Shown here one piece after another: positions 45,957 through 62,294 of a stretch of 64,000 nt of DNA; position 1 is the first letter of the stretch; each line of letters opens with the position of its first letter. Origin of the DNA: Microbulbifer thermotolerans (GTDB lineage Bacteria; Pseudomonadota; Gammaproteobacteria; Pseudomonadales; Cellvibrionaceae); contig NZ_FOKT01000003.1 of the NCBI RefSeq assembly GCF_900112305.1, positions 62,001 through 126,000 of the forward strand, written 5' to 3'. The notes under the pieces were generated by a model. It saw nothing but the letters and a program-made list of their open reading frames with translations. It was not told the DNA's origin and did not search any database. Made by a program: the position numbers and the translations under genes.

Positions 45957-45969
45957 AGCGGGCTACCGG

Positions 45970-46080
45970 AACCAACGGATACAGGGATGTATCCGATAGA
46001 GTGCCAGGGACGCTTCCTAAATACCTACCCCATTGCTTGAACGGTCCCGAGCCGACTACAGCTGGGTTTAGCCATTAATT
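45970..46080 (+). repeat. MITE-like element, copy E (decayed)
   Basis: Keeps the ACGGATACAGGGATGTATCCGAT hairpin, GTGCCAGGGACGC, CCCCATTGCTTGAACGGTCCCGAGCC and a terminal ATTAATT, but the left half is missing. It lies between the convergent ends of thiI and nrtS, and the nrtS stop codon (46075-46077) falls in the terminal TTAAT. Confidence 0.6.
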
Positions 46081-46404
46081 TTCCGACTCGTTTCTGCTCA
46101 TCCATTCGATTTGATTCCTTGCTGCACTGTAAGACGCCACACAGTATGGCACTACGAAGTTCAGTAAAACCTTCAACCAATCGATTTCCTGACCAGTAGT
46201 CAATGCGGGCCCCTGGTTGATCGCATTCAACAGAGCGCCCACTACTAACGATACACGAAACGCATTGCGAACAACGTGCTGCTGTATAAGAATTAACCCT
46301 ATCCTGCTCAAAGCAAAGATCCCCATATGTATCAAGCGCATACAAATCCAGGCAAAGTTGATTCTGGGCGCTCTTGAGCCAGTCCGAATACGACCGCCGA
46401 TCAT
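46075..46404 (-). CDS. nrtS: Nitrate/nitrite transporter NrtS-like membrane protein
   Basis: A 109-residue protein with the NrtS signature VVRNAFRVSLVVGALLNAINQGPAL ... INWLKVLLNFVVPYCVASYSAAR (here DWLKVLLNFVVPYCVASYS, residues about 74-92), giving two membrane helices. NrtS proteins are small nitrate/nitrite transporters first described in cyanobacteria and marine gammaproteobacteria. The ATG at 46404 overlaps the upstream stop (ATGA), which supports this start although inner ATGs (46341, 46326) are possible. No nitrate assimilation enzymes are visible in the window. Confidence 0.78.
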   Translation of the reverse strand: MIGGRIRTGSRAPRINFAWICMRLIHMGIFALSRIGLILIQQHVVRNAFRVSLVVGALLNAINQGPALTTGQEIDWLKVLLNFVVPYCVASYSAARNQIEWMSRNESEN

Positions 46405-46853
46405 CCAATATGGCGCAACAACAACTGCTTTGTGATCTCTCGTCTTTTTTGATCAGTTAAATCACTCTTGCTCAAATAGAGAACAGGTGTGTCCACCTGT
46501 TCAAGAGAACCGTATTGATCAGAATTTGAAACCCCAACTATCTGAGCGTTAATTCCTTTCTTATCCAACAGGTCGGCAATGGTTGTGGCTGCCACATCAA
46601 AAGGCAATAGAGCCGCGAAAATAATCGGCAACTTTGGATTGATGTCGAGAACACTGTCCACCACCTTCTCTACTGAAGCATCTATGCTGGAGACCACTGC
46701 TAAGGATATGAGTGCTGCGCCTGAGCGCTTGGCTTGCGCACCTATATCGGCAAAACAGTCCGGCTTCAATACACTATAATGACACTGCTCAAGTAGCGGC
46801 TTCATCTCCTGAACAATAAAAGGGTGGGGCCTGGCAAGTAGTACATTTTTCAT
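46401..46853 (-). CDS. CheY-like receiver protein lacking phospho-acceptor residues (pseudo-receiver)
   Basis: A 150-residue protein with the receiver pattern of alternating beta strands and helices: NVLLARPHPFIVQEMKPLLEQ, AALISLAVVSSIDASVEKVV, KLPIIFAALLPFDVAATTIADL. The acidic pair expected after strand 1 is replaced by RPHP, and the phospho-Asp position after strand 3 is Ser/Ala. It is therefore probably not phosphorylated, as in atypical receivers. It is translationally coupled to nrtS (4-base overlap), suggesting that it regulates or senses in the same pathway. The receiver assignment is a judgement from pattern. Confidence 0.5.
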   Translation of the reverse strand: MKNVLLARPHPFIVQEMKPLLEQCHYSVLKPDCFADIGAQAKRSGAALISLAVVSSIDASVEKVVDSVLDINPKLPIIFAALLPFDVAATTIADLLDKKGINAQIVGVSNSDQYGSLEQVDTPVLYLSKSDLTDQKRREITKQLLLRHIG

Positions 46854-46961
46854 CACTGCTTACTCCTGATCTTTGAAACGAACTTTTTCTCCTTAGTCGT
46901 TCAAGCTTCAGGGTTATTACAGGCACGATAGAAAATTAATCCAGCTTCTCACCGAAAACTC

Positions 46962-47180
46962 TAGGGAACCTCTGATTAAGTCGCTTCCTGACGGTAAAAA
47001 TTCTTTGGAGCCAGATGAGAAGCTCAGGTGATAGGATGGCCATTTCGAAACCGTCGGATACAGGGATGTATCCGTCGGAGCTACAGGGAAGTACTCGTGC
47101 GTTTTCGAAATGGCCATCCTATTGCCTGAGCGCACCGGAACCTACCTTAGCGTTCACGCGAATTAATCGGAGGTTCCCTA
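46962..47180 (+). repeat. MITE-like element, copy F (full length, best-preserved palindrome)
   Basis: 219 bp between TAGGGAACCTCTGATTAAG and AATTAATCGGAGGTTCCCTA; flanks give CTAG at both ends, in line with a TA target duplication. The arms 47022-47050 and 47103-47131 pair over 29 positions with 2 mismatches and enclose the smaller GGGA-loop hairpin. It sits between the pstB stop and the pseudo-receiver gene, so it separates the arsenic/pst operon from nrtS. Confidence 0.9.
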
Positions 47181-47214
47181 GATCCAAAACTTACGCAAGT
47201 TGATATCCTGCCTA

Positions 47215-48045
47215 TCAACCTCGCGCGCCGGACACATAAGCCGCAGTCAATGCATGGCGTGGTGCTTCAAACAAATGTCGACACAGGCCAAATTCGATCA
47301 GTTTCCCAACCCGCTCAGTCATCCAGAAAAAGCCTGCATAGTTGGCAACCCGACGGGCCTGCGCCAAGTTGTGCGTTACAATCACTACCGTGTAGCGCCC
47401 TCGCAAGCGCAAAATCAACTCCTCCACGATGCCGGATGAAATGGGATCAAGAGCGCTGCACGGCTCGTCCATCAACAGCACTTCTGGCTCTAGGACCAGC
47501 GCACGAGCGATACATAACCGCTGTTGCTGTCCACCGGAAAGCGCCAGAGCGGATGCGTCCAATCGATCCGATACTTCCTCCCAGAGCCCGACATCTTTGA
47601 GCACTTTTTCGATCTTCCTGTATCGCACTTGGCGGTCTCGAATACCGTGCTCTTTTAAAGGCAGTTCCAGGTTTCGCCGAATAGACAGGGGAAAAGGGTT
47701 GGGCCGCTGGAATATCATTCCTATACGGCGTCTGAGGCCCAGCGTATCCACCGAATCGCGCAACAGATCCTGACCATCAAATAAAATCTGCCCGGCAACG
47801 CGCGCATCGCTGTGGTCGGTAAGCCGATTCAAAGTGGAAAGGAAACTGGTCTTGCCGCACCCTGAGGGTCCGATCAATGCGGTGATACAACCCTTGTAAA
47901 TATCCAGCGATACCTGGGACAAAACTGTCTTATCGCCGTAGCCAACCTCCAGGTCACGCACACGCATCAAGGGCTCGGGAGCACAACAGGGAGGCCTTTG
48001 TTCGATACATCCCAACGTATAGTGGTTCACTTCACTCAGGTTCAC
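47215..48045 (-). CDS. pstB: Phosphate ABC transporter ATP-binding protein PstB
   Basis: A 276-residue ABC ATPase. The start is GTG at 48045, overlapping the pstA stop (GTGA); the open frame further upstream shadows pstA. Walker A is GPSGCGKT, the signature is LSGGQQQR and Walker B is LLMDEPCSALDP. The RIGMIFQRPNPFPLSI segment is typical of PstB (QxPNPFP). It is the last pst gene, and no phoU follows, unusual for such operons. Confidence 0.95.
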   Translation of the reverse strand: MNLSEVNHYTLGCIEQRPPCCAPEPLMRVRDLEVGYGDKTVLSQVSLDIYKGCITALIGPSGCGKTSFLSTLNRLTDHSDARVAGQILFDGQDLLRDSVDTLGLRRRIGMIFQRPNPFPLSIRRNLELPLKEHGIRDRQVRYRKIEKVLKDVGLWEEVSDRLDASALALSGGQQQRLCIARALVLEPEVLLMDEPCSALDPISSGIVEELILRLRGRYTVVIVTHNLAQARRVANYAGFFWMTERVGKLIEFGLCRHLFEAPRHALTAAYVSGARG

Positions 48046-48896
48046 GATACAAACACCCTCCGTTTGAACCAGTCTTCCAGCAGGCTCTGCGCCAGCGTGT
48101 TGAGTAAGACAATCAGAACCACCAGTACCAACGCCGAAGCATAAGCCGCACTGTCGCCACCGGTGACATTCATGGACAAATCGTAAATATGTACTGCGAG
48201 AGCGCGCCCTGAATCCAGCGGCGACTCCGGCATACGATCGACATAGCCACTGGTGAACACCAATGCTGCCGTTTCTGCGGTGGCACGACCGATTCCCAGC
48301 ACTAACCCGGCTCCTATCGCGGGACGCGCCGCCGGTAACAGGATATGCCAAATCGCAGCACTGCGGGCCATACCAAGCGCTAACGCCCCCCGGCGCCACT
48401 CGTCGTTTACCGCTCGCAACCCAGATTCACAGGTACGCACAAACACCGGCAAAATCATAAGTGCCAGAGTTAACCCGCCAGATAACAGAGAAAAGCCGAG
48501 ACCGAGATAAATACTGAAAAATGCATTGCCAAAAAGCCCATATACGATCGAGGGAACCCCGGCCAAAATATCCAAAGTGACGCGCGCGATATCGGAAAAC
48601 CGACGGCGTCCTGCGGCAAACTCTGACAACCAAACGGCAACGCCCAGCCCCAGTGGCAGTGCAGTAACCAGCGCAATAGAGAGTATCCACAAAGTGGAAA
48701 CCAAAATGGGGGCGATACCACCGGATCGTCCGGAATCCTCAGGCTCAGTAAATAAAAAAGACCAGGAAAAGTGGGCAACTCCCTCAATCAATACATCGCC
48801 CAGCACCCACAACAACAAAGAAACCACCAAGGCGGCGCAACCTGACATAAGCCAACCGAACAGGCGATCAACCATATTGGCCGGCCTCGCGTCCAT
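48042..48896 (-). CDS. pstA: Phosphate ABC transporter permease PstA
   Basis: A 284-residue permease with six membrane helices (about 15-40, 63-85, 110-135, 140-160, 185-210, 250-275). The permease EAA-like motif is in GMARSAAIWHILLPAARPAI. It overlaps pstC by 29 bases if started at 48896; a second ATG (MVDRLFG, 48875) would overlap only 8 bases. With PstC it forms the channel for phosphate and, by chemical similarity, arsenate. Confidence 0.93.
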   Translation of the reverse strand: MDARPANMVDRLFGWLMSGCAALVVSLLLWVLGDVLIEGVAHFSWSFLFTEPEDSGRSGGIAPILVSTLWILSIALVTALPLGLGVAVWLSEFAAGRRRFSDIARVTLDILAGVPSIVYGLFGNAFFSIYLGLGFSLLSGGLTLALMILPVFVRTCESGLRAVNDEWRRGALALGMARSAAIWHILLPAARPAIGAGLVLGIGRATAETAALVFTSGYVDRMPESPLDSGRALAVHIYDLSMNVTGGDSAAYASALVLVVLIVLLNTLAQSLLEDWFKRRVFVS

Positions 48897-49764
48897 TGCG
48901 GGTAACTCTATAGCTGCCCCATGACAGCAACCACACCATAGCGGTCAACAGCAATCCGGACGCAAACAAGCTGGCTCGGTGGTCACCCATGGCATAGGAC
49001 ATTTCCAGGGCAATATTGGCAGTGAGAACACGCACTGGATCAAACAGCCCCGCAGGAAACTGAACCACATTTCCCGCAACCATAAGCACCGCCATGGTTT
49101 CCCCTAGAGCTCTTGCAGTAGCCAGCAATACACCTCCGAAAATATTGGAGCGGGCAGCCGGAAGCATGATATGGAGAATTTGTGTTTTCCGACGCATCCC
49201 TAAGGCTATACCGCCATGGAGCAATTCTCCGGACACACTGGCAAGGGCGGCGGCGCTGGTCAGAGCAATCGTAGGCAATACCATTAATGACAGCACTAGT
49301 ATTGCCGCCAATAATGACGCCCCAGGAGGCTGCCAAAGGGCGATTAACGGAACTATCCGCGTTAACCCCCACAGTCCAAATACTACCGAGGGAACACCTG
49401 CCAGTAGGGTGAGCAGTAAACGGAAAGTTCTCGCCACTTTGGGATTCGCGTAAAACTGCAGATAAATTGCACTTGCCAAGCCCACAGGAAGCGCCACGAT
49501 AAGAGCGCCCAAAGTTACAGCGAGCGATGCCAGTAACATCGGCGCCATGCCAAAGCGGTTTTCCTGTGGATACCACCCCTGATACTGTAGCCAATCGAAC
49601 CAGCTTCCACTGTGCCAACGGCTGGAGAGAAAAGGCCAGGATTCCTTGATTAAAAATAAAACAATAAGAGTTAGCAGTAATGCAGCCCCGGCAGACAGCA
49701 CAGCAAGCATCATACTCAGGCGGTGATCGGTGCGATTGACGATCCCCTTAGCGATCCAGCTCAT
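48868..49764 (-). CDS. pstC: Phosphate ABC transporter permease PstC
   Basis: A 298-residue permease with about six membrane helices and the conserved cytoplasmic loop ALGMRRKTQILHIMLPAARSNIFGGVLLATARALGETMAV. The start is ATG 49764 (a GTG at 49767 is next to it). It follows pstS with a 16-base gap. Confidence 0.93.
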   Translation of the reverse strand: MSWIAKGIVNRTDHRLSMMLAVLSAGAALLLTLIVLFLIKESWPFLSSRWHSGSWFDWLQYQGWYPQENRFGMAPMLLASLAVTLGALIVALPVGLASAIYLQFYANPKVARTFRLLLTLLAGVPSVVFGLWGLTRIVPLIALWQPPGASLLAAILVLSLMVLPTIALTSAAALASVSGELLHGGIALGMRRKTQILHIMLPAARSNIFGGVLLATARALGETMAVLMVAGNVVQFPAGLFDPVRVLTANIALEMSYAMGDHRASLFASGLLLTAMVWLLSWGSYRVTRNGREAGQYG

Positions 49765-49780
49765 CACCTATGGTTATCCA

Positions 49781-50590
49781 TCAGGGTGCAACAAAAAATT
49801 GTGCTTCTATAATGTCCTTTACGGCATCTGATTGCGCAAAGGCTATAAATTCTTTAGCTAATCCAACAGGTGTATTTCTCACAACCAAATTCAACTGGCG
49901 AGAAAACTGATAACGACCTTTTGCCACATTCTCCGAGGTAGGGATTTCACCCTCCATAGAAATTAATTTGATAGGAGTTCCGTGGTTCTCTTCATATTCT
50001 GCAGTGCCGATGGATACATAGCCAATCGCACCGGCAATCGCCGACACACTTTTGATGCCCTGTTGATTATCTCCAATTACAACTTGTGCATTTATCTGAC
50101 TATTTCTGAGGGAAAAATGTTGTAAAAATAATTCCAAAGTCGAACGTCCTTCCGCCTTATTGATTACAGTTATTGGCAAATTCGAACCACCGACTTCTTC
50201 CCAGTTGCGAATCTTTCCGGAGTAAATACCAACTATCTGATCACCAGTGAGGTTTCTTACCGGATTATTCTTATGCGTAATTATGCCGATACCGTCTCTG
50301 GCAATAAGGTATGCGGAAAGATCTTTTTCCGAGGCTTTCAACGCACGTGACACCATTCCGATGTCTGCCAGCCCAAGACGAACATCATTGATTCCTCTTG
50401 AGGAACCACCTGTCTGCACATTGATACGCACTCCTGGATGTTGAGATTCGAAGCGCTTAGCCACTTCCAAAATCAAAGGAGCAATAGTGCTTGACCCCGT
50501 TAAAGTGAGACGACCTCCACTGGCCTGGACAACTGAGGCACTGGCCAATACATACATTAATAACAACAACCTAATAAAAATTCTTAACAT
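49781..50590 (-). CDS. pstS: Phosphate-binding protein PstS
   Basis: A 269-residue periplasmic binding protein with a signal peptide (1-23). The phosphate-binding loops are visible: LTGSSTIAPLILEVAK and TGGSSRGINDVRLGLADIGMVSR. It is shorter than E. coli PstS and belongs to the SphX/PstS 'PBP-like' branch. Whether it discriminates against arsenate cannot be read from sequence alone, but the arsenic genes directly upstream make this question important. Confidence 0.92.
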   Translation of the reverse strand: MLRIFIRLLLLMYVLASASVVQASGGRLTLTGSSTIAPLILEVAKRFESQHPGVRINVQTGGSSRGINDVRLGLADIGMVSRALKASEKDLSAYLIARDGIGIITHKNNPVRNLTGDQIVGIYSGKIRNWEEVGGSNLPITVINKAEGRSTLELFLQHFSLRNSQINAQVVIGDNQQGIKSVSAIAGAIGYVSIGTAEYEENHGTPIKLISMEGEIPTSENVAKGRYQFSRQLNLVVRNTPVGLAKEFIAFAQSDAVKDIIEAQFFVAP

Positions 50591-50708
50591 GCCAGTCTCA
50601 TGAACATTTGTGGATTATTTATCGCAATAAACTCTGATTAAGGAGCAAGTAAAACTTCACATTTCATAAATTGGAAATAAAGTTTTCTGCATCACCATGG
50701 CCTTATAA

Positions 50709-50740
50709 GACGGCAGATAGACATAAGTCCATCCGCCGTC
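50709..50740 (-). promoter_or_regulatory. Hairpin between arsM and pstS
   Basis: In the minus-strand RNA, 14 pairs including two G-U wobbles (GACGGCGGAUGGAC/GUCUAUCUGCCGUC, loop UUAU) form 8 bases after the arsM stop. The wobbles exist only in the minus RNA, so this strand is probably the functional one. A short UUAUAA follows rather than a U-tract; it may be a partial terminator that lets some transcription through to pstS. Confidence 0.5.
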
Positions 50741-50748
50741 GCGAAAAT

Positions 50749-51789
50749 TCAGCAGCAAGCCCCGCTTTGTGTAGCGAATACGTCAATATCAAAAGGGATA
50801 TTAGAGCCACAGCCCTCAAATACACCAAAATGCCGGCTGAAGTCTCCGATGTATTGAAAATGTTCTGAAAACCGGGTATCGCGCAACATCCTCCAGGTAT
50901 TTCCACACACAGGAAACACTCGCCCTGTCTCGATTACATGGTGTTTATCCAAAACAAACCTGTGTTCGCAGTTAGGGATAGAGCCCCGATATATCACTGC
51001 CTGGCCGTAATCTTCACAGGCGCTTTCCAGATCTTCCAGTTTGAACAGGCGATAAGTCGCGGAAAAGAACTGCAGGTTACCGGTTCTATGTGCCAGGTTA
51101 TTGTCGGTGATTTCTAGACGTCGGTCTTCCAGCAAACGGGGATCTATAAAGCCAGCAGCCTGTGCCAGACGGAGAAAATCATTCCAATACAAGGCTCCGC
51201 CAAGACACTCTCCGTACAATACAGCATCCGTCCTCACTTCATCTGGAACTCTGCGGTCGGAGTAAACGTCGGAAAAATAGAATTCACCACCGGGTTTTAA
51301 TAGGCGGTAGACACCGGACAGCACCGCAGCCTTATCCGGTGACAAGTTCACCACGCAATTGGAAACAATAACATCAAATGAGCCAGGCTCCAGATCGAGC
51401 TCATCGAGCTTCTCGATATACCCTTTAATAAACCTTACGTTGTCATAACCAAACGCCTGCGCATGCCATTCTCGATGGTTTTGAGCCACAGCAAGCTGTT
51501 CTTCAGTCATATCAACGCCGACAACCTCTCCCTCGGGTCCGACCAACTGTGCCAGGGCATAGACATCGCGCCCCGTTCCACACCCGAGATCCAGCACCCG
51601 GCACCCCGATAACAGGGGTGGGCACACAAGGCCACACCCATAGTAACGGGACAGAATTTCCGGATGGATTTTGGCCAGCAACGGCTTCAGCCACTCGGGC
51701 ACAGCACTGGCATCACAACAGGCAGTTGTTTTGAGATCATCGGAACTCTGCAACTGTTTTCCATAATAATCTTGGACGAATTCATGCAT
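50749..51789 (-). CDS. arsM: Arsenite S-adenosylmethionine methyltransferase ArsM
   Basis: A 346-residue methyltransferase. SAM motif I is RVLDLGCGTGRDVY (residues 64-77). The arsenite-binding Cys residues expected of ArsM are present: CC at 24-25, C52 in YYGCGLVCP, the Cys of SNCVVNLSP and of GECLGGALY. A C-terminal domain follows and ends in GACC. It methylates As(III), the step that provides dimethylarsenic for arsenosugars. A GAGGAG site precedes the start. Confidence 0.9.
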   Translation of the reverse strand: MHEFVQDYYGKQLQSSDDLKTTACCDASAVPEWLKPLLAKIHPEILSRYYGCGLVCPPLLSGCRVLDLGCGTGRDVYALAQLVGPEGEVVGVDMTEEQLAVAQNHREWHAQAFGYDNVRFIKGYIEKLDELDLEPGSFDVIVSNCVVNLSPDKAAVLSGVYRLLKPGGEFYFSDVYSDRRVPDEVRTDAVLYGECLGGALYWNDFLRLAQAAGFIDPRLLEDRRLEITDNNLAHRTGNLQFFSATYRLFKLEDLESACEDYGQAVIYRGSIPNCEHRFVLDKHHVIETGRVFPVCGNTWRMLRDTRFSEHFQYIGDFSRHFGVFEGCGSNIPFDIDVFATQSGACC

Positions 51790-51823
51790 GGTGAAAAACT
51801 CCTCTCGAACTCACTTGAACAGA

Positions 51824-52255
51824 TCAGGAGCTCTTCTTTGACAAAGTAAACAAGTTATCCCAATCCCTTAACCAATACAGCGCCAGGCAGGCCGCCAACA
51901 TTGGCCAAGCGGCAAAAAACAGAAGGTGATCAAAAGGTGCCATGTACTGCTTATAGGATGAAAACGTGGAAATTGCGTGCAGTATTAACACCAACCCATA
52001 AGTCCAGCGCCGCCAGAGCCCGGCAACAAATGCCAGAACCAATAATAATTCCAAGCTACCGAAGATGTAGGACATATGGCTTGTCAGCCATTCGATACCG
52101 TAAAATTTTTCAAAAACTTTTCCGGTGTGCGCGGGGTTTACAAATTTATCCAGTGTCCACATCAACATCACAATAAAAACGCCCAGACGCAGTGCTAGCA
52201 GAGATCGTGACAAAGGCTTTTCTAGTGAATCGGGAAGTGCGGTTTTTACGTCCAT
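51824..52255 (-). CDS. DoxX-like small membrane protein
   Basis: A 143-residue protein with four membrane helices (about 22-40, 62-82, 85-105, 112-130) and the DoxX-like core ALRLGVFIVMLMWTLDKFVNP. DoxX-type proteins are linked to oxidative stress and redox balance at the membrane. It sits between arsM and the glycosyltransferase gene with short gaps and AAGGAG upstream, so it is part of the arsenic unit. Its role there is unknown. Confidence 0.75.
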   Translation of the reverse strand: MDVKTALPDSLEKPLSRSLLALRLGVFIVMLMWTLDKFVNPAHTGKVFEKFYGIEWLTSHMSYIFGSLELLLVLAFVAGLWRRWTYGLVLILHAISTFSSYKQYMAPFDHLLFFAAWPMLAACLALYWLRDWDNLFTLSKKSS

Positions 52256-52276
52256 AGGTATATTCTCCTTTCTGGT

Positions 52277-52939
52277 TTAACTTTGGTTATATTTAAATCC
52301 GCGATGTAAATTGACAGGCCAGTCTTCAGGCAAGTACTGCAAGTCTTGCGGTTCATCAATGTCGTGTAACGGTGTCATTTCCACGAGTGTCCAACCAGCC
52401 TCCACTATTCTCTGCCGGGTAAGACTTGCGACTGAAGCAGTACTCCAGGGTATATCGAGAAACACCGTGGGCAGGTAGTTTGAAAGCCCCAGTAGCGCGT
52501 AGCCGCCATCGCTCACAGGTACCATGCATGCGTCGTTTTTCTCCAGGGATAGTGCCGCCGCACGCAGCTTATCAGCGGTCATATCGGGGCAGTCTGTTCC
52601 TATTAATAAAACTGCTTCTCCCTTGTCAGTTGTTCGTCGGGCCGCATCGGCCAAACGTTCACCCAGATTGCCTTCTTTCTGCTCGGACCACTCCAGGGAA
52701 GAGGGCAGGGCTAGTTCACTCCAAATAGGCAGCATACGATCCGGTGCCACACACAGTTCAACTGGTCCAATATCCGCCTTAACCGCTTGCTCTACAGTAT
52801 GTTCCAGCAGTTTTGCAGCGAGACATGCCGAACCTTCACTGCCAAGGGCGGGAATCAGTCTCGTCTTGGCCATACCCGGTAAAGGTGCCTTGGCCAGAAT
52901 AACTATCCGGATCACGGTGTCGTCACGGAATCTCATCAT
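52277..52939 (-). CDS. TIGR04282-family glycosyltransferase (arsenosugar-associated)
   Basis: A 220-residue protein of the DUF2064/TIGR04282 group of nucleotidyl/glycosyltransferase-like proteins: IVILAKAPLPGMAKTRLIPALG is the N-terminal sugar-nucleotide site and LLIGTDCPDM carries the metal-binding DxD-like motif. TIGR04282 proteins co-occur with arsM and arsS and are assigned to arsenosugar biosynthesis. The start has two adjacent ATGs (52939, 52936). Confidence 0.85.
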   Translation of the reverse strand: MMRFRDDTVIRIVILAKAPLPGMAKTRLIPALGSEGSACLAAKLLEHTVEQAVKADIGPVELCVAPDRMLPIWSELALPSSLEWSEQKEGNLGERLADAARRTTDKGEAVLLIGTDCPDMTADKLRAAALSLEKNDACMVPVSDGGYALLGLSNYLPTVFLDIPWSTASVASLTRQRIVEAGWTLVEMTPLHDIDEPQDLQYLPEDWPVNLHRGFKYNQS

Positions 52940-53085
52940 GGTTCTAAAATGCCCTTTACTTCTTGTATGGCAATATCCACAGCTTTATATCTGAAATACT
53001 TTTAGGTGCAGGCGATTTATGCCTCCGCCCATAAGACAGGTGTTCAACGGTTCTTTATTGGGGAAAACTTGCAAAGTTATCGCCA

Positions 53086-53886
53086 TTATTTTTTGTTGAG
53101 ATTCCAGTCATAGTTCAGAAAGTCGATTTCCACTTTCCCGTTTCTCAACTTCGTCTTCATCGGCTCAGATAATTGGAGCGCATCAGCCTTCTCCAAAAGG
53201 AAATCTTCCAGCCTTTGATACCCTAACCAGCCCTTTTCAAAATCCTCCCGATACCATTTGAATATCGGCGAAAGATTAATCGCACTATCTTCTACCCGGT
53301 TTCGGCTGCGATCGCGAAGAAACAAGTCAACTTGTTCGTTCAACTGCTGATCGAGGCGCTCCCCGGTATAAGCTTCGGCGCGCAGTGCGGGGCATCCTAT
53401 ACTGGCGCAGTTGACGGCAAAGTGAATTCTGGGGTCGTTATATCGACCAGGAGCTCGCAACAGGCCATGTTCAATATCGTCGAGGCTTCTCGTTTCTCCA
53501 AGTAGTGGCACAAACTCTTTACGCCATGGAGAGGTGAAGAGACCACCTAAATCCTTGATCGACTCCAGCTCCGGCCACGCGCTCAGAATCAGCTCTACAG
53601 TCCAGGCGTTATAGGCATTAATCAAAAATGCCTTTTGTTCATTTACCGTCCAGCTGTCAAATTCCGATCGGCGCACTTTCGATAACGCCTCGCGGTACGT
53701 CATTAACTGATCCCGATCCCCGGACAGCCCCTGATAATCCACAACAGTGGCTACACCGCCATTGATGCTGTAAACATGGGCATTGAGCAATTTGTTCCAA
53801 ATAGAGTGATCGAAACTTGTGGCCGCAGCACCGTTAAGTGCCAAAAGGCTTAGTAGTAATCCGATCAGCCAGCGATTATTTCGCAT
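53086..53886 (-). CDS. DUF547 domain exported protein
   Basis: A 266-residue protein starting at the ATG 53886, which overlaps the end of the reductase gene by 11 bases, with AGAGG just before it. A signal peptide (1-24) is followed by a DUF547 domain: NEQKAFLINAYNAWTVELIL, then DDIEHGLLR, and RIHFAVNCASIGCPALRAEAY, whose Cys residues recur in the family. DUF547 proteins are often found next to thiol or electron-transfer enzymes; no activity is established. Its tight coupling to the reductase gene suggests a partner. Confidence 0.85.
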   Translation of the reverse strand: MRNNRWLIGLLLSLLALNGAAATSFDHSIWNKLLNAHVYSINGGVATVVDYQGLSGDRDQLMTYREALSKVRRSEFDSWTVNEQKAFLINAYNAWTVELILSAWPELESIKDLGGLFTSPWRKEFVPLLGETRSLDDIEHGLLRAPGRYNDPRIHFAVNCASIGCPALRAEAYTGERLDQQLNEQVDLFLRDRSRNRVEDSAINLSPIFKWYREDFEKGWLGYQRLEDFLLEKADALQLSEPMKTKLRNGKVEIDFLNYDWNLNKK

Positions 53887-56035
53887 TACCTCTTCTCCAC
53901 TGGTGATATTTTTCCACCCACGCGAGCACACCTTGTGGCGCATGGGCACGCTTCCATTCACCGGCTGCATATTTATTGGCCTCAGCCCATGTAGGATAGG
54001 CGTGAATGGTGCCGAGAATCTTGTTCAGGCCCAGTCGATATTTCATCGCCAGAACAAACTCAGCCATTAGATCGCCACTGCGATCTCCGACAATAGTGAC
54101 GCCGAGAATACGGTCTTTTCCCGGTTCAGTGAGTACCTTGACGAATCCACAGGCGCTGCCGTCCGCTATGGCCCTATCCAGGTCATCTAAACCGTAACGA
54201 GTGACTTCAAAAGGAATACCTTTTTCCCTGGCTTCCTGTTCATTGAGGCCGACCCGCGCTACTTCAGGGTCAATAAAGGTCGTCCAAGGTATAACGCGGT
54301 AGTCGACCCGGAACTTCTTGAACTGGCCAAACAACGCATTGACGGCGGCGTACCAGGCTTGATGGGCTGCGACATGCGTAAATTGATAAGGCCCCGCCAC
54401 ATCACCGACAGCGAAAATATTCGGGTATAACGTCTGGAGATAGTCATTGGTGACTATCGTCCGTCCGGTTTCAATACCCAGTTCTTCCAGCCCGTACCCC
54501 TCCAATCGGGCAACGCGTCCTACTGCGCAGAGCAGAGCGTCGAAGGCAATCGCTTTCTCCGCACCATCGTGCTCGACGATCAATCGTTTTTCACCATTGG
54601 ATATTTCACAGCGAAGCGCTTTGTGGCCAGTAAGAACCGTGACGCCATCACGCTCCAATGAGGTTTTGGCCAGTTCGGATACCTCCTCATCTTCCCGAAT
54701 CATAATACGAGGTGCCATTTCCACCTGAGTTACCTGAGATCCCAGCCGCGCAAAACTCTGTGACAGCTCGCACCCTATGGGGCCACCTCCCAGTACCAGA
54801 AGCCGGTTTGGCGCGTCATCCAGCTGGGCGAATTCGTCCCACAAAGTATCACTGGTGACGTAGCCCACCTCTTCAATACCCGGGAGAGGAGGAACAAAGG
54901 GACGTGCCCCCGTTGCCAATACAATCGAACGGCTGGTGAGACGTTGTACATCTCCATCGTTGCGTTTTATTTCCACAGTCCAGGGATCGATGAGCTTCGC
55001 ATATCCCTGAATGACCTCTACCCCCAGCCCTTCGTACCGCTCGATGCTATCGTGTGGCTCAATCTTGCGAATCACCTCATGGACACGGGCCATGACCTTG
55101 CGAAAAGAAAAGTCTGGAGATACCGCATCCAACCCGTAATGGTCTGCATGACGCATCTGGTTTGCCAGGCTTGCGCTCTTAATCAGGGCTTTGCTCGGGA
55201 CACAACCGTAATTCAGGCAGTCGCCCCCCATCTTATTGGCTTCGATCAGGGTAACTTTTGCTTTTACCGCTGCCGCTATATAAGAACTCACCAATCCGCC
55301 GGCACCAGCGCCAATGACAACCAGATTGCGGTCAAATTTTTTTGGCTTTTTATAGTCTTTATAGACACGGCGATTCTTTATTAAAGTCAGTATTTTTTTC
55401 GCCAATAGAGGGAAGATTCCCAACAAAGCGAACGATGCCAGCAAGGAAGGAGACAGTATTCCCGACAAGCTGGTTAGATTGGCCAACTGTGTCCCTGCAT
55501 TAACATATACCAGAGTTCCTGCCAGCATCCCCAACTGACTCACCCAATAGAAGGTCAGCGCTCTCAAAGGGGTAAGCCCCATTAGTAAATTGATAAGGAA
55601 AAAAGGGAATACCGGCACCAAACGCAAGGTGAACAGATAGAAGGCGCCTTCTTTCTCGATACCTTTATTAATGGGACTCAGTCTTTCGCCAAAACGGCTT
55701 TGTACCGTATCCCGAAGAAGATAGCGGGAAACGAGAAGGGCGAGTGTTGCTCCTATAGTGCTGGCGAATGAAACAATTACCGTTCCCCATAACAGGCCAA
55801 ACAAGGCTCCCGCCGCCAATGTCATTACCGCTGCGCCAGGTAAAGACAATGCTGTTACCAGGACATAAATCAAGAAAAAGACACCACCAACCAATATGGG
55901 TGCCTCTACACGCCAACTTTCAAATTGTGAAAGTCCATTTTTTAAACCATCCAATGTCGTCAATTGGTGTAGGTCAAAGTAAAAAAAACCAGCAACCAAT
56001 ATGGCCAACAGGATTAATAAACCTATTTTTTTCAT
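53876..56035 (-). CDS. VTT/DedA-domain fused to a mercuric-reductase-like FAD disulfide oxidoreductase
   Basis: A 719-residue fusion. Residues 1-215 form a TVP38/TMEM64 (VTT) membrane domain with about six helices, including the SLPGAAVMTLAAGALFG motif. Residues 235-715 form a class I pyridine-nucleotide disulfide oxidoreductase: FAD motif VIGAGAGG (240-247), redox-active Cys pair in GDCLNYGCVPSK (C273 and C278), NAD motif GGGPIGCELS and the dimer interface ending YPTWAEANKYAAGEW. The mercuric-reductase C-terminal Cys pair is absent. It may transfer electrons at the membrane for arsenic or sulfur chemistry. Confidence 0.88.
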   Translation of the reverse strand: MKKIGLLILLAILVAGFFYFDLHQLTTLDGLKNGLSQFESWRVEAPILVGGVFFLIYVLVTALSLPGAAVMTLAAGALFGLLWGTVIVSFASTIGATLALLVSRYLLRDTVQSRFGERLSPINKGIEKEGAFYLFTLRLVPVFPFFLINLLMGLTPLRALTFYWVSQLGMLAGTLVYVNAGTQLANLTSLSGILSPSLLASFALLGIFPLLAKKILTLIKNRRVYKDYKKPKKFDRNLVVIGAGAGGLVSSYIAAAVKAKVTLIEANKMGGDCLNYGCVPSKALIKSASLANQMRHADHYGLDAVSPDFSFRKVMARVHEVIRKIEPHDSIERYEGLGVEVIQGYAKLIDPWTVEIKRNDGDVQRLTSRSIVLATGARPFVPPLPGIEEVGYVTSDTLWDEFAQLDDAPNRLLVLGGGPIGCELSQSFARLGSQVTQVEMAPRIMIREDEEVSELAKTSLERDGVTVLTGHKALRCEISNGEKRLIVEHDGAEKAIAFDALLCAVGRVARLEGYGLEELGIETGRTIVTNDYLQTLYPNIFAVGDVAGPYQFTHVAAHQAWYAAVNALFGQFKKFRVDYRVIPWTTFIDPEVARVGLNEQEAREKGIPFEVTRYGLDDLDRAIADGSACGFVKVLTEPGKDRILGVTIVGDRSGDLMAEFVLAMKYRLGLNKILGTIHAYPTWAEANKYAAGEWKRAHAPQGVLAWVEKYHQWRRGNAK

Positions 56036-56070
56036 TCGCCACCTATGTCACGATGTTTTCCAAACCAGCG

Positions 56071-57024
56071 CTAGAAAGCACCGCCACAACTGCTGCCCTG
56101 ACCGGCAGTACAAGCATAACAATGGTCCGCCACACAGATTGGCTCTTCATTGACATCTTCCTGCAGCAGATCGCGTAAGTGTTTGCGTTTAGTACCACCC
56201 AGTGGCAGATCCAGTTGCTGATTGAAATCACAGTCGTATAAATATCCTTGCCAGTCGACACTAACCAGCGATCTGCACATAACCTGTTCAATATTGCTCT
56301 GTTGGTAATTGTCCTTAAGCAATTGCATATAGCTTTGAAATTTTCCCTTGGCGATCAGGGTGGCGCCAAAACGCTTAATCGGCATATTGGCCAATGCATA
56401 CAGCTGATTGAATTCGATACCAAAGTGCCGCTGTAGTTCGCGTTTGTATTCCGCTTCGAGCAATTTTTGATCCGGCGGTAAAGATGCCCCCTGTGGGTTG
56501 TAAACCAGATTCAGGATCAAACCACTGCCAGGCTTGCCATAGCCCAACGCATTGAGCTTTTGTAAGCCCGCAATACTTTTATCAAATACGCCCTTACCAC
56601 GCTGGTTATCGACATTTTTCAGGGAATAACAGGGCAGTGACGCGACTACTTCCACTTGCTTCTCCGCCAGAAATTCCGCCAACCCTTCCTGCCCGGATTC
56701 AAACAAAATTGTGAGATTACATCGATCAATAACGTGCAGGCCGGCAGCGCGCGCCGCGGACACCAAATAACGGAAGTCGGCGTGTAATTCCGGTGCGCCA
56801 CCGGTCAGATCCAGCGTTCGGACATTACGGGACTTGGCAACCGGCAGGATCAGATCCAGGGTTTCCCGCGCCATCATCTCTTTGCGATTCGGTCCTGCGT
56901 TGACATGGCAGTGCAGGCAACGCTGGTTGCACTTGTAGCCCAGATTGACTTGGAGAGTCTCCAGGCCTTTGCGCCGAATGACGGGGAAGTCAGTAACTTC
57001 CAGCAGGGGTAAGGTTGCGCGCAT
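56071..57024 (-). CDS. arsS: Arsenosugar biosynthesis radical SAM protein ArsS
   Basis: A 317-residue radical SAM enzyme. The cluster motif CNQRCLHC (Cys 32, 36 and 39) and the GG(A/T)PE SAM loop (LDLTGGAPEL) are intact. C-terminal Cys residues (YDCDFNQQL, ICVADHCYACTAGQGSSCGG) would hold a second Fe-S site. ArsS attaches a 5'-deoxyadenosyl group to dimethylarsenic, the committed step of arsenosugar formation. It is the promoter-proximal gene of the arsenic operon. Confidence 0.93.
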   Translation of the reverse strand: MRATLPLLEVTDFPVIRRKGLETLQVNLGYKCNQRCLHCHVNAGPNRKEMMARETLDLILPVAKSRNVRTLDLTGGAPELHADFRYLVSAARAAGLHVIDRCNLTILFESGQEGLAEFLAEKQVEVVASLPCYSLKNVDNQRGKGVFDKSIAGLQKLNALGYGKPGSGLILNLVYNPQGASLPPDQKLLEAEYKRELQRHFGIEFNQLYALANMPIKRFGATLIAKGKFQSYMQLLKDNYQQSNIEQVMCRSLVSVDWQGYLYDCDFNQQLDLPLGGTKRKHLRDLLQEDVNEEPICVADHCYACTAGQGSSCGGAF

Positions 57025-59498: not shown

Positions 59499-62294
59499 TT
59501 AATTTTGCTGGATATTGTTATCGCTGGTATTTCCTGAGACTGGACCATTGGATTGCCCATTGACGCCTGACGCCAAGTTATTTATCAGCACGGGGAAGTT
59601 TGTGAGATTATTAACGACTGAGCTTGTTAGAGTTAACTGATCCTGATTCTGCAGGGAGTCTTCCAGATGACGAATACTGTGCTTGTCTCCCGATAGCACC
59701 ACTTGCAGATTGGAGGGTATATCGGTTTGACTGCTACGCAAGGTAATATCATGATTTTTTCCTCCAATAAAGGCGAGTGCTCCCCACCCATTTTTTGAAC
59801 CGTCGGTTGGCAAAACAGTGATATCTGCCTTGGTGCCGTTATCGCTAGAATAGGCGAAAGTAATTACCGGACCTACATCAGCATCAGCGTACGAATTAAC
59901 AATATTTCCGGAGCCGATTGAATATCCCTGCTCACAACCGATTACTGTTGTATTTTCAACATACTTGCTGCCAGTGGCGTGCACCAAAGTAACACCTGTT
60001 CGCGTATTTCGAATCACTGAATTCAATACTGTTACCGTATCTGCACCGCGCTCATATTCAACCCCATCGATAATGGTGTTACCGCCGTTATAAGCCCGGA
60101 TACCGGCTTCTTGCAAACTCATCCAGTAACCTGTCGGCAGCTTGTAGCCCCAAACCGTCATAAAATCAACACTGGCAGCACGGGCATCGGCAGCGGCAAA
60201 ACGTGGGTTGTTTGCTGCCAACATATCCGCTGTTGAGCGCAACTCACCTTGTACATAAATACCATCAATCAGCGTATCTTCAGATCCCTGCATAAACACG
60301 GAGTGACCGTATGAATAATTGAATACCGTGGAATTCCTGAAGGTATTGCGTAAACCACGAATCAGTACTGAAGAGTGTTTCTGGTGAGATAGTACAGGGC
60401 CAGCGCCTTTACCGTAGGCATCACCCAAACCGTATGGTTGAGAGCCGCGCGAGGTGATAATGAGGCCTTCAATTACATTATCCCGGCCGTCCATCATGAC
60501 ACCGAGTGCGCCACCACTCGGCGAAGTGTCGCCGATATCTTCAATAGAAAGATTGCTTATGGTGTTGTAGTTACCGACCGTACGCAACTGTATGACTTCG
60601 TTTTTCCCAAATTGACGCCACAGATCCGTATCAAATTTTATGTAGGCACAGCGGAAGTCGTAATGACTGTTGTGTCCATCAACGGGCAATAGCGTACTAG
60701 CGGCCTTGCCACCGGGTAGGGATTGTGAGGTAAATAAACTCGTATCACTTTCATCAATGACATAAGTGCCTGGTTTTAATGCCACTTTTACATTGTTTTT
60801 CCCCATGGCCTCAATCATTTCAGGTAAAGAGTCCACAAGTGTAAATCCTGCGGGCGTTTCACAGCTAACGGGCAGAGCACCTGCTACTGTCCCACCGCCA
60901 CCAACGTAGGTTGCACCCTCCCGAATGGAGGAATCATTGTCAATTATATTTAACCAATTTAGATTAAATGCCGCCGATTCAACATTGATTCTCAGAGTAT
61001 GAGTGCCAGCACTGATATTACCTAAGTAAACTTCTTCAGTATTCCAGTTTTGCCAGCCTCCGGTAGAATCTACCCCATGTTGCGCCACCACGACGCCATC
61101 AACCTCTATAGAAATCTGCCCCGTGTCGCTTGGTGAAGCCAGGCGAAGTTGCGCACTGTACTCCCCTGTATTGGAAACATAAATTGGATACTCCAACCAC
61201 TCACCGGCATCCATCCAGCCAACGTTGTAGCCACCGCCAGAATCAGTTGTCTCCTGAATATCGACACCTTCATCCGGGCGATACGCTCCACCACGATTCT
61301 CAGTATCAGCATCAGAATAGTTACTGAAGTCTTCGGCCTCTATTTTTCCGGGGACAATAAACAGGCTGCCTGTAGCTTCAACACCATAAACCTCTACTTC
61401 TGCGAGGCTTAACGGATTACTACCAGCAAGCTGAACTCTGACATAACGACCGCTACGATTAATATCGATAGATGTCGGGCTACCCGCTGTGGAACCGTAG
61501 TAGTAACTGGCAACATCGTCCTGTGCAAGCAGCACATTTAAATCGTTTGAACTAAATGGTTTATCTGAAACCAATACATAAAAATTGGATAAACGTGAGC
61601 TGCAACAGCTATCAGTTCGGTTATAAAGATTGATGGTTGAAATGGTGCTTACACTGCCTAAATCAACCTGCCACCAAGGTTGTATTTCGTTCTCAGTATG
61701 TGTAATGGTATTGCTACTCCAGTTACCGCGAACATCTCCATCAACCGCTCGACTGGAAATACCACTGTAATCCGTAGAGGATTGCGAGGTAGATTTACCC
61801 AAGGCCAAATTCACTATTTCGCCACTTGCCACCTCAGAAGCTGAAATAGCCACCTCAGTAAAGCTGTTCCATTTATTTGACGTATTTCCGTAACCCACAA
61901 TACGCACATAGCGGGCTTCCGTATCGTCTACATCAAAGATTTGCAGATCCAAGGTTTTTGATGGTTGATCACCGTAGAAAATACTTTCCCAGGTGTTACC
62001 ATCACTAGATACTTGGATTTCTATCGTCGCAGTTCTCTGATCACCTTTATAAAAAGCTATCTGCACATCTTTGACGATGTAATTCTTTCCGAGGTCATAT
62101 TCAATCCATTGCCCATCTCCAATGGCAGACCAACGGGTTTCCAGATTGTTGTCTAGCGTATTCTCCGGGATATTGCCATCATTAGAAGAAGCAGTAACAG
62201 AAACAGGATCGATTGCAAATGCGCTAACGCCATATAAGGATGAAAGCAAACACAAAATGGTAGCACTCAGTGGGATTCTTTTATATCTACTCAT
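59499..62294 (-). CDS. Secreted multi-domain protein: two F5/8C domains, CBM6, right-handed beta-helix
   Basis: A 931-residue protein with a signal peptide (1-27), a first discoidin (F5/8 type C) domain (about 30-150), a second (about 158-305), a CBM6 (about 308-445, beginning FIVPGKIEAEDFSNY) and a beta-helix region (about 475-900) with many Asn/Gly-rich turns (SNLSIEDIGDTSP, IRNTRTGVTLVHATG). Beta-helices with such CBMs occur in polysaccharide lyases and glycoside hydrolases acting on algal polymers. I cannot assign a CAZy family by eye. The C-terminal Asn/Ser-rich tail may be a linker. Confidence 0.8.
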   Translation of the reverse strand: MSRYKRIPLSATILCLLSSLYGVSAFAIDPVSVTASSNDGNIPENTLDNNLETRWSAIGDGQWIEYDLGKNYIVKDVQIAFYKGDQRTATIEIQVSSDGNTWESIFYGDQPSKTLDLQIFDVDDTEARYVRIVGYGNTSNKWNSFTEVAISASEVASGEIVNLALGKSTSQSSTDYSGISSRAVDGDVRGNWSSNTITHTENEIQPWWQVDLGSVSTISTINLYNRTDSCCSSRLSNFYVLVSDKPFSSNDLNVLLAQDDVASYYYGSTAGSPTSIDINRSGRYVRVQLAGSNPLSLAEVEVYGVEATGSLFIVPGKIEAEDFSNYSDADTENRGGAYRPDEGVDIQETTDSGGGYNVGWMDAGEWLEYPIYVSNTGEYSAQLRLASPSDTGQISIEVDGVVVAQHGVDSTGGWQNWNTEEVYLGNISAGTHTLRINVESAAFNLNWLNIIDNDSSIREGATYVGGGGTVAGALPVSCETPAGFTLVDSLPEMIEAMGKNNVKVALKPGTYVIDESDTSLFTSQSLPGGKAASTLLPVDGHNSHYDFRCAYIKFDTDLWRQFGKNEVIQLRTVGNYNTISNLSIEDIGDTSPSGGALGVMMDGRDNVIEGLIITSRGSQPYGLGDAYGKGAGPVLSHQKHSSVLIRGLRNTFRNSTVFNYSYGHSVFMQGSEDTLIDGIYVQGELRSTADMLAANNPRFAAADARAASVDFMTVWGYKLPTGYWMSLQEAGIRAYNGGNTIIDGVEYERGADTVTVLNSVIRNTRTGVTLVHATGSKYVENTTVIGCEQGYSIGSGNIVNSYADADVGPVITFAYSSDNGTKADITVLPTDGSKNGWGALAFIGGKNHDITLRSSQTDIPSNLQVVLSGDKHSIRHLEDSLQNQDQLTLTSSVVNNLTNFPVLINNLASGVNGQSNGPVSGNTSDNNIQQN

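Follow-up and report, generated by a model that had tools for sequence, protein, structure and literature searches.

Why should bacteria of several phyla link a phosphate-type importer to their arsenosugar genes, although arsenate enters cells via phosphate transporters? The question is posed by a locus of Microbulbifer thermotolerans (NCBI RefSeq assembly GCF_900112305.1), which lies in a stretch of 64,000 nucleotides covering positions 62,001 to 126,000 of contig NZ_FOKT01000003.1, called here the window. An earlier note on this DNA had listed twelve co-directional minus-strand genes, running from arsS through arsM and pstSCAB to nrtS. All twelve were found in place, and the identities given to the genes from arsS to pstB and to nrtS agree with profile, fold and homology evidence. 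We consider it probable, although far from certain, that the unit is an arsenic-methylation and arsenosugar operon with its own arsenic-responsive accessory PstSCAB phosphate importer.

The evidence is clearest when the locus is viewed from PstS. A PstS alignment scan of 84,980 species genomes gave 274 relatives, and the best 80 of these 274, picked by PstS similarity alone, were kept as loci. With gene labels assigned by tblastn (queries from the window, from locus L062 for arsC, from Nitrospira and from Moorena; acr3, arsB and divergent ars genes uncounted, several contigs short), arsM and/or arsS were found within 10 kb on the same strand in 55 of the 80 loci and on the opposite strand in two, while 12 have only arsR, adjacent to pst, and 11 none of these genes. 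The loci linked to arsM/arsS span Pseudomonadota, Nitrospirota and Cyanobacteriota, and two arsR-only ones belong to Planctomycetota. The expected conservation of the arsM-pstS linkage in relatives therefore stands for this Pst clade (57 of 80 loci, and the 12 with arsR only), but arsS and arsM loci at large do not show it, as set out below. Upstream of pstS (≤700 bp), the nearest labelled gene in the 80 loci is arsM in 21, arsR in 20, arsC in nine, arsS in eight and another in seven, with 15 unlabelled. When gaps are computed from the first start codon of each open reading frame (ORF), 14 of the 51 loci measured show an overlap between pstS and the ars gene closest to it, and in 15 more the two are at most 52 bp apart (29 of 51 in total). 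In 27 of the 80 loci, including loci in other phyla, pstS is preceded by an ArsR-type ORF, and 26 of these 27 have a Cys-Cys pair near the C terminus, a mark of some arsenite-sensing ArsR proteins. On a PstS tree built with a quick method, poorly resolved as it is (22 of 88 inner branches starred; the outgroup not split off by a single branch), the ars labels cluster, with 19 changes against a shuffled mean of 27.0 and none of 500 shuffles as low.

The order arsS-VTT/reductase-DUF547-TIGR04282-DoxX-arsM-arsC-pstSCAB is found in L092 and L093, and L095 shows the same order without arsS in the stretch; counterparts of the DoxX-like gene occur in the operons of L062, L092, L093, L095 and L106. 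Nitrospira has arsM-arsR-arsS-pstSCAB and Moorena arsM-arsS-arsR-pstSCAB, and the ArsM of Moorena passes the arsenosugar ArsM model (577.8 bits, cut-off 400). Because these two differ in order and their ArsM proteins are only about 25-34% identical to that of the window, the comparison suggests that the arsM-pst pairing arose more than once. A pairing conserved in this way suggests that uptake and arsenosugar chemistry work together. Within the genus, a sister operon is present on a contig of Microbulbifer rhizosphaerae (genome G087, L062:9605-17382), in which VTT and reductase are encoded separately, with no arsM match, an arsenate-reductase-like gene directly before pstS, an internally deleted arsS and open pst reading frames.

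In the window, where all genes described here lie on the minus strand, the pst genes are tightly packed: pstS (49781..50590), a substrate-binding protein gene of the arsenic-linked clade, is followed after 13 bp by pstC (48868..49767), and from there on the permease genes pstC and pstA (48042..48896) and the ATPase gene pstB (47215..48045) overlap, with the GTG start of pstB at 48045 overlapping the pstA stop. PstC and PstA pass their NCBIfam cut-offs (TIGR02138, 217.8 bits, cut-off 196.45; TIGR00974, 251.3 bits, cut-off 193.45), whereas PstS (TIGR02136, 177.9 bits, cut-off 206.6) and PstB (TIGR00972, 316 bits, cut-off 343.2) do not. Despite these scores, both are plain homologues, and the AlphaFold 2 model of PstS (predicted local distance difference test score 93) was matched by Foldseek to the solved PstS 1twy (E 1.3e-28). 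The same genome (3.92 Mb) holds a second operon, pstS-pstC-pstA-pstB with a phoU-like gene, on the same contig at a distance of about 147 kb (its pstS and phoU named by inspection), and no phoU stands beside the window pstB. PstC matches are present at at least two loci in 18 of 18 distinct clade genomes examined (19 handles, of which G221 and G701 show the same places; one genome, that of L119, has no ars gene by pst). Because all 18 keep another Pst, the window Pst is an accessory one, distinct from the housekeeping pstSCAB-phoU.

On the arsenic side, ArsS (56071..57024; CNQRCLHC motif), an arsenosugar radical SAM protein, exceeds its TIGR04167 cut-off (474 bits, cut-off 300), and so does the TIGR04282 family arsenosugar glycosyltransferase-like protein (52277..52939; 189.8 bits, cut-off 134), so that two members of the arsenosugar gene set are recognised by their own profiles. 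A search for solved structural relatives of ArsS at E 1e-5 returned none. The arsenite methyltransferase ArsM (50749..51789) stays below the NCBIfam cut-offs (NF008823, 177 of 263 bits; NF038099, the arsenosugar ArsM, 89 of 400) and matches solved arsenite methyltransferases (PDB 5evj, 344 bits; 4fr0, 295 bits); its cysteines C24, C52, C145 and C195 lie at motifs aligned with these enzymes and presumably bind arsenic. It represents a lineage different from the ArsM of NF038099, with 5evj as its closest PDB entry, and is the sole convincing ArsM found in the genome (next match 44 bits). The window thus resembles the NCBIfam arsenosugar gene sets (TIGR04167 ArsS, TIGR04282/TIGR04283 glycosyltransferases, NF038099 ArsM) in having ArsS, a TIGR04282 protein and an ArsM, but unlike the window most arsS loci examined have no pst. 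The remaining genes of this part encode a fusion of a VTT (TVP38/TMEM64-type) domain with a flavin adenine dinucleotide-dependent disulfide-reductase-type oxidoreductase (53876..56035; PF09335, PF07992, PF02852), a DUF547 protein (53086..53886; PF04784; start at 53886 preferred within an ORF from 53970) and a DoxX/MauE-like small membrane protein (51824..52255), whose Pfam matches are weak, below the MauE and DoxX cut-offs. Elsewhere in the genome, a second small arsenosugar locus (C21:337747-340385, corresponding to L035:8979-11617) comprises an MtnP-like gene, arsS and a GT4283-like gene, with no arsM or pst match in its 20-kb stretch.

How could the two halves cooperate? Arsenic would enter as arsenate and be reduced by an ArsC-like enzyme, whose gene lies between arsM and pstS in some relatives and would lie elsewhere in this genome; ArsM would methylate the reduced arsenic, ArsS would join the product to a 5'-deoxyadenosyl-derived sugar, and the glycosyltransferase(s) would turn this into arsenosugars. 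Arsenic would control the accessory Pst jointly with these enzymes, and the importer would keep phosphate entering while arsenate competes. We infer for this strain both the co-regulation and the direction of the benefit, as well as an arsenosugar as the product. The main rival turns the direction around: Pst would import arsenate to feed arsenosugar or arsenolipid synthesis, which makes arsenate a usable input, for instance by sparing phosphate in lipids. We regard this as unlikely, yet as the alternative that deserves the most weight. It draws on an arsenate-reductase-like gene that overlaps pstS in nine loci, in eight of them between arsM and pstS (L092, L093, L095, L107, L140, L152, L163, L166) and in L100 without arsM; this order would mirror import, reduction and methylation. 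However, the encoded ArsC-like proteins belong to the low-molecular-weight phosphatase family (PF01451) and stay below the NCBIfam ArsC cut-offs (65 of 174), and the genome also encodes one Acr3 arsenite pump, on another contig.

The binding site of PstS is similarly ambiguous. Its loop K-x-E-G-[RH]-S-T (K145-A-E-G-R149-S-T in the window) is unlike the R-x-x-G-S-G-T loop of 4gd5, which would suit arsenate import, but it is found clade-wide, including members without ars genes, its K and R also occur in the control loci L285 and L286, and part of the motif conservation is circular because one PstS scan pattern contained NKAE. We therefore rejected the loop as an arsenic-specific signature, given its presence in clade members without ars genes. 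In addition, the Asp aligned with E. coli D56, which we take to be the phosphate-selecting residue, is retained in 51 of 58 ars-linked PstS proteins, a point against arsenate as the cargo. The altered loop, together with the lack of phoU beside pst, would also suit a PstS-type protein that binds another arsenic or phosphorus anion, such as methylarsenate or an arsenosugar phosphate, for uptake or sensing; since its fold agrees with PstS, as do several residues of the site, this is the least probable of the readings and hardly to be expected. For arsenate import, a review reports that Pst1 of Agrobacterium tumefaciens moves As(V) into the cell, with about half of the As(V) going into lipids under phosphate starvation, whereas the Pst systems of Halomonas GFAJ-1 are described as highly phosphate-specific (PMC7533571 and PMC5930303, in the parts available).

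A plasmid-borne variant bears on the same question. On an Acinetobacter plasmid (L304:2740-11031), arsS-VTT/reductase-DUF547-GT-GT-arsM (GT, glycosyltransferase) is followed after 22 bp by a PHO4-family transporter gene in place of pst, and mtnP adjoins; a plasmid search with this transporter found no other copy. The protein is labelled an inorganic phosphate transporter and scores 99 bits with the CysP sulfate permease model (cut-off 400) against 47 with PitA (cut-off 800). PHO4-family transporters discriminate poorly, and the replacement speaks for arsenate import.

The preferred reading, an accessory phosphate importer under arsenic control, has to be weighed against a number of findings that count against it, of which the fit of the PHO4-family transporter is one: in the place of pst, it is ill-suited to a purely arsenate-excluding role. 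Another is that in GFAJ-1, according to the part of PMC5930303 available, deletion of either pst operon, one of them in the arsenic island, left arsenic resistance unaffected. In the window itself, arsR is missing and arsM and pstS are 158 bp apart. The coupling which the earlier note had drawn from order and spacing gains from the often overlapping genes of relatives and loses from this gap. That the window holds neither phoU nor arsR had been noted correctly: tblastn with arsR and arsC of relatives and the genome's own phoU found none of them in the 64 kb. The arsR beside pst that would mark an arsenic island with an ArsR-controlled pst1 is absent from the window. A Pho-box pattern had no match upstream of the window pst at up to three mismatches, but this says little because the canonical pst region was missed by the same pattern. 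Viewed from the arsenic genes, the linkage is rare. Apart from the window, a pst operon adjoins arsS in two of 57 loci of the family (L062 and L069, genomes G087 and G112; counted by pstS, pstC and pstA, with a 39-residue pstS match in L083 uncounted) and in one of 40 phylum loci (L180; drawn from 117 arsS genomes, one per genus and one genus with two, with a 26% pstS-like match 3 kb from arsS in L204 uncounted). None of 18 distant arsM loci (49-58% identity) has a pstS match, and of two nearer ones L180 has pst and L186 does not; the other 19 of the 39 further arsM places are outside this count. The view that arsS or arsM generally comes with pst is therefore rejected (2/57, 1/40 and 0/18 loci).

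The PstS side has its exceptions as well. Three of the 11 unlinked loci are on contigs below 9 kb, but several are on long ones; among them, L118 still shows the VTT/reductase and DUF547 genes, and in L159 and L161 a DUF547 gene precedes pst. Of 143 genomes in a class sample, five besides our own carry the PstS clade at 51-57% identity, and the next PstS-like matches reach at most 35%. None of these five more-distant clade members has arsM or arsS and one has arsR (one of the five loci is on a contig of just 7.4 kb). The 15 control loci, taken from the next PstS-like matches (29-35% identity), include one arsS neighbour, in L285, and no arsM or arsR match; in this locus (L285:7083-13584), arsS and glycosyltransferase genes diverge from a pst operon that falls outside the clade (about 30-38% identity). 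Inner-clade PstS thus predicts arsenic genes well, while arsenic genes do not predict clade PstS. Alternatively, the accessory Pst could be a mobile cassette for phosphate scavenging that has often inserted into arsenic islands and does not work with the arsenosugar enzymes, an explanation we hold to be distinctly unlikely. It would account for the patchy spread (of 58 arsS loci in the family, just those of the window, G087 and G112 have pst alongside), for the outer members without arsM/arsS, for the deleted arsS beside open pst frames in L062, and for plasmid-borne accessory pst copies, one with arsR, one with arsR plus arsM a few kb off and one without a labelled ars gene. Against it stands the direct contact of ars and pst genes, often with overlap, in different phyla, combined with arsM of dissimilar lineages and with Cys-Cys arsR.

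A feature of PstB adds a further twist. In 74 of the 80 loci, for which PstB was tabulated, 47 proteins have a Cys-Cys pair exactly 39 residues before the Walker A motif, compared with 0 of 30 canonical PstB proteins (the 30 top-scoring TIGR00972 loci among 60 genomes, hence the most canonical ones). The window PstB has it at 47983-47988, at the same distance. A further cysteine just before Walker A is present in 46 of the 47, against two of 30 canonical proteins. By neighbourhood, the pair occurs in 38 of 52 loci with arsM/arsS, in one of 12 with arsR only and in eight of ten with neither, and it therefore follows lineage and not linkage alone. This N-terminal Cys-Cys extension is a new feature open to testing. 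We can only guess at an arsenite-sensing role, but such a PstB would belong to a transporter that may carry its own arsenite sensor. A bolder version is an arsenic-assimilation operon, in which a dedicated arsenate importer would feed arsenosugars or arsenolipids and the Cys-Cys pair plus the cysteine before Walker A would let cytoplasmic arsenite gate the pump; we judge this very improbable.

For the favoured accessory importer under arsenic control, A. tumefaciens 5A offers a measured precedent: pstS1 rises 8.6- to 14.1-fold with As(III), the ars-linked pst1 is repressed by ArsR1, and the separate pst2 is reported as unresponsive (PMC7965956, part available). The pst1/pho1 operons in the aio/ars islands of A. 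tumefaciens 5A and GW4 likewise place a second Pst beside arsenic genes, with a separate pst2 (PMC3834237, PMC7965956 and PMC7533571, in the parts available). However, in these passages they stand beside aio and ars genes with phoB/phoU and not with arsM/arsS as in the window; the words "arsM" and "arsenosugar" are absent from the main text of PMC3834237. The GFAJ-1 island resembles the window in holding a complete pst operon inside an ars island in addition to a second pst, but the passage on the island names arsH1, acr3-2, arsH2, major facilitator superfamily (MFS) genes and gapdh and, unlike the window, not arsS or arsM (PMC5930303, part available). Cyanobacterial arsR-pstS-gap3-MFS-arsB-arsC clusters have arsR before pstS in some cases, as in relatives of the window, and their authors suggest arsenic co-regulation and a possibly arsenate-insensitive PstS; in the part available, these clusters join pstS to efflux genes, not pstSCAB to arsM/arsS (PMC4284471). 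The passages available of PMC4010505, PMC3954881 and PMC5552862 contain no arsM/arsS-pst union, and no description of one was found in the literature searched, which leaves out most subscription papers. Arsenic-induced accessory pst beside aio/ars genes is therefore known, whereas pst joined to arsenosugar genes is apparently new, as none was found in print. The locus makes two questions directly testable, namely what the accessory Pst in arsenic loci carries and why bacteria make arsenosugars.

Behind pstB, the earlier note had rightly placed a repeat. It is a high-copy inverted-repeat element of about 220 bp (46960..47182, strand undefined), resembling a miniature inverted-repeat transposable element, with at least 40 near-full genome copies including that of the window (the others at 91-95% identity; more candidates unscored). 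A shorter related palindrome is found at 45967-46010. Beyond the repeat lie a gene for a 151-amino-acid protein (46401..46856) and nrtS (46075..46404; NF038050, 38.7 bits, cut-off 25), which overlap; their membership in the unit is doubtful. The name pseudo-receiver given to the 151-amino-acid protein is unsupported because no Pfam or NCBIfam model matches it, and tblastn found no match in 177 related loci. An arsC remnant was considered in the gap between arsM and pstS, and none was found. The inclusion of nrtS in the unit was dropped as well: the high-copy repeat intervenes, and nrtS occurs in one of 48 genus genomes and in 21 of 143 family genomes at E 1e-3, of which 19 exceed the cut-off. 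Among the papers listed for NrtS, all eight deal with plant or fungal transporters. Within the fetched stretch around arsS or pst, nrtS is present in five of 177 loci (L089, L093, L114, L141, L188), and a loose association of the pair with the unit is possible. In three loci, a gene for a sigma-70 family factor comes after nrtS in the vicinity of arsS or pstB (L093:1507-2604, L114:13457-14520 and L188:10566-11585; the sigma factor profile-tested in L093 only), with a small zf-HC2-like gene beside the nrtS/sigma pair in L093 and L114. Similar sigma ORFs lie near the operon in L095, L107, L120 and L147, and zf-HC2-like ones in L107, L120 and L147. Where arsR is missing, such a sigma-70 family factor is a possible regulator.

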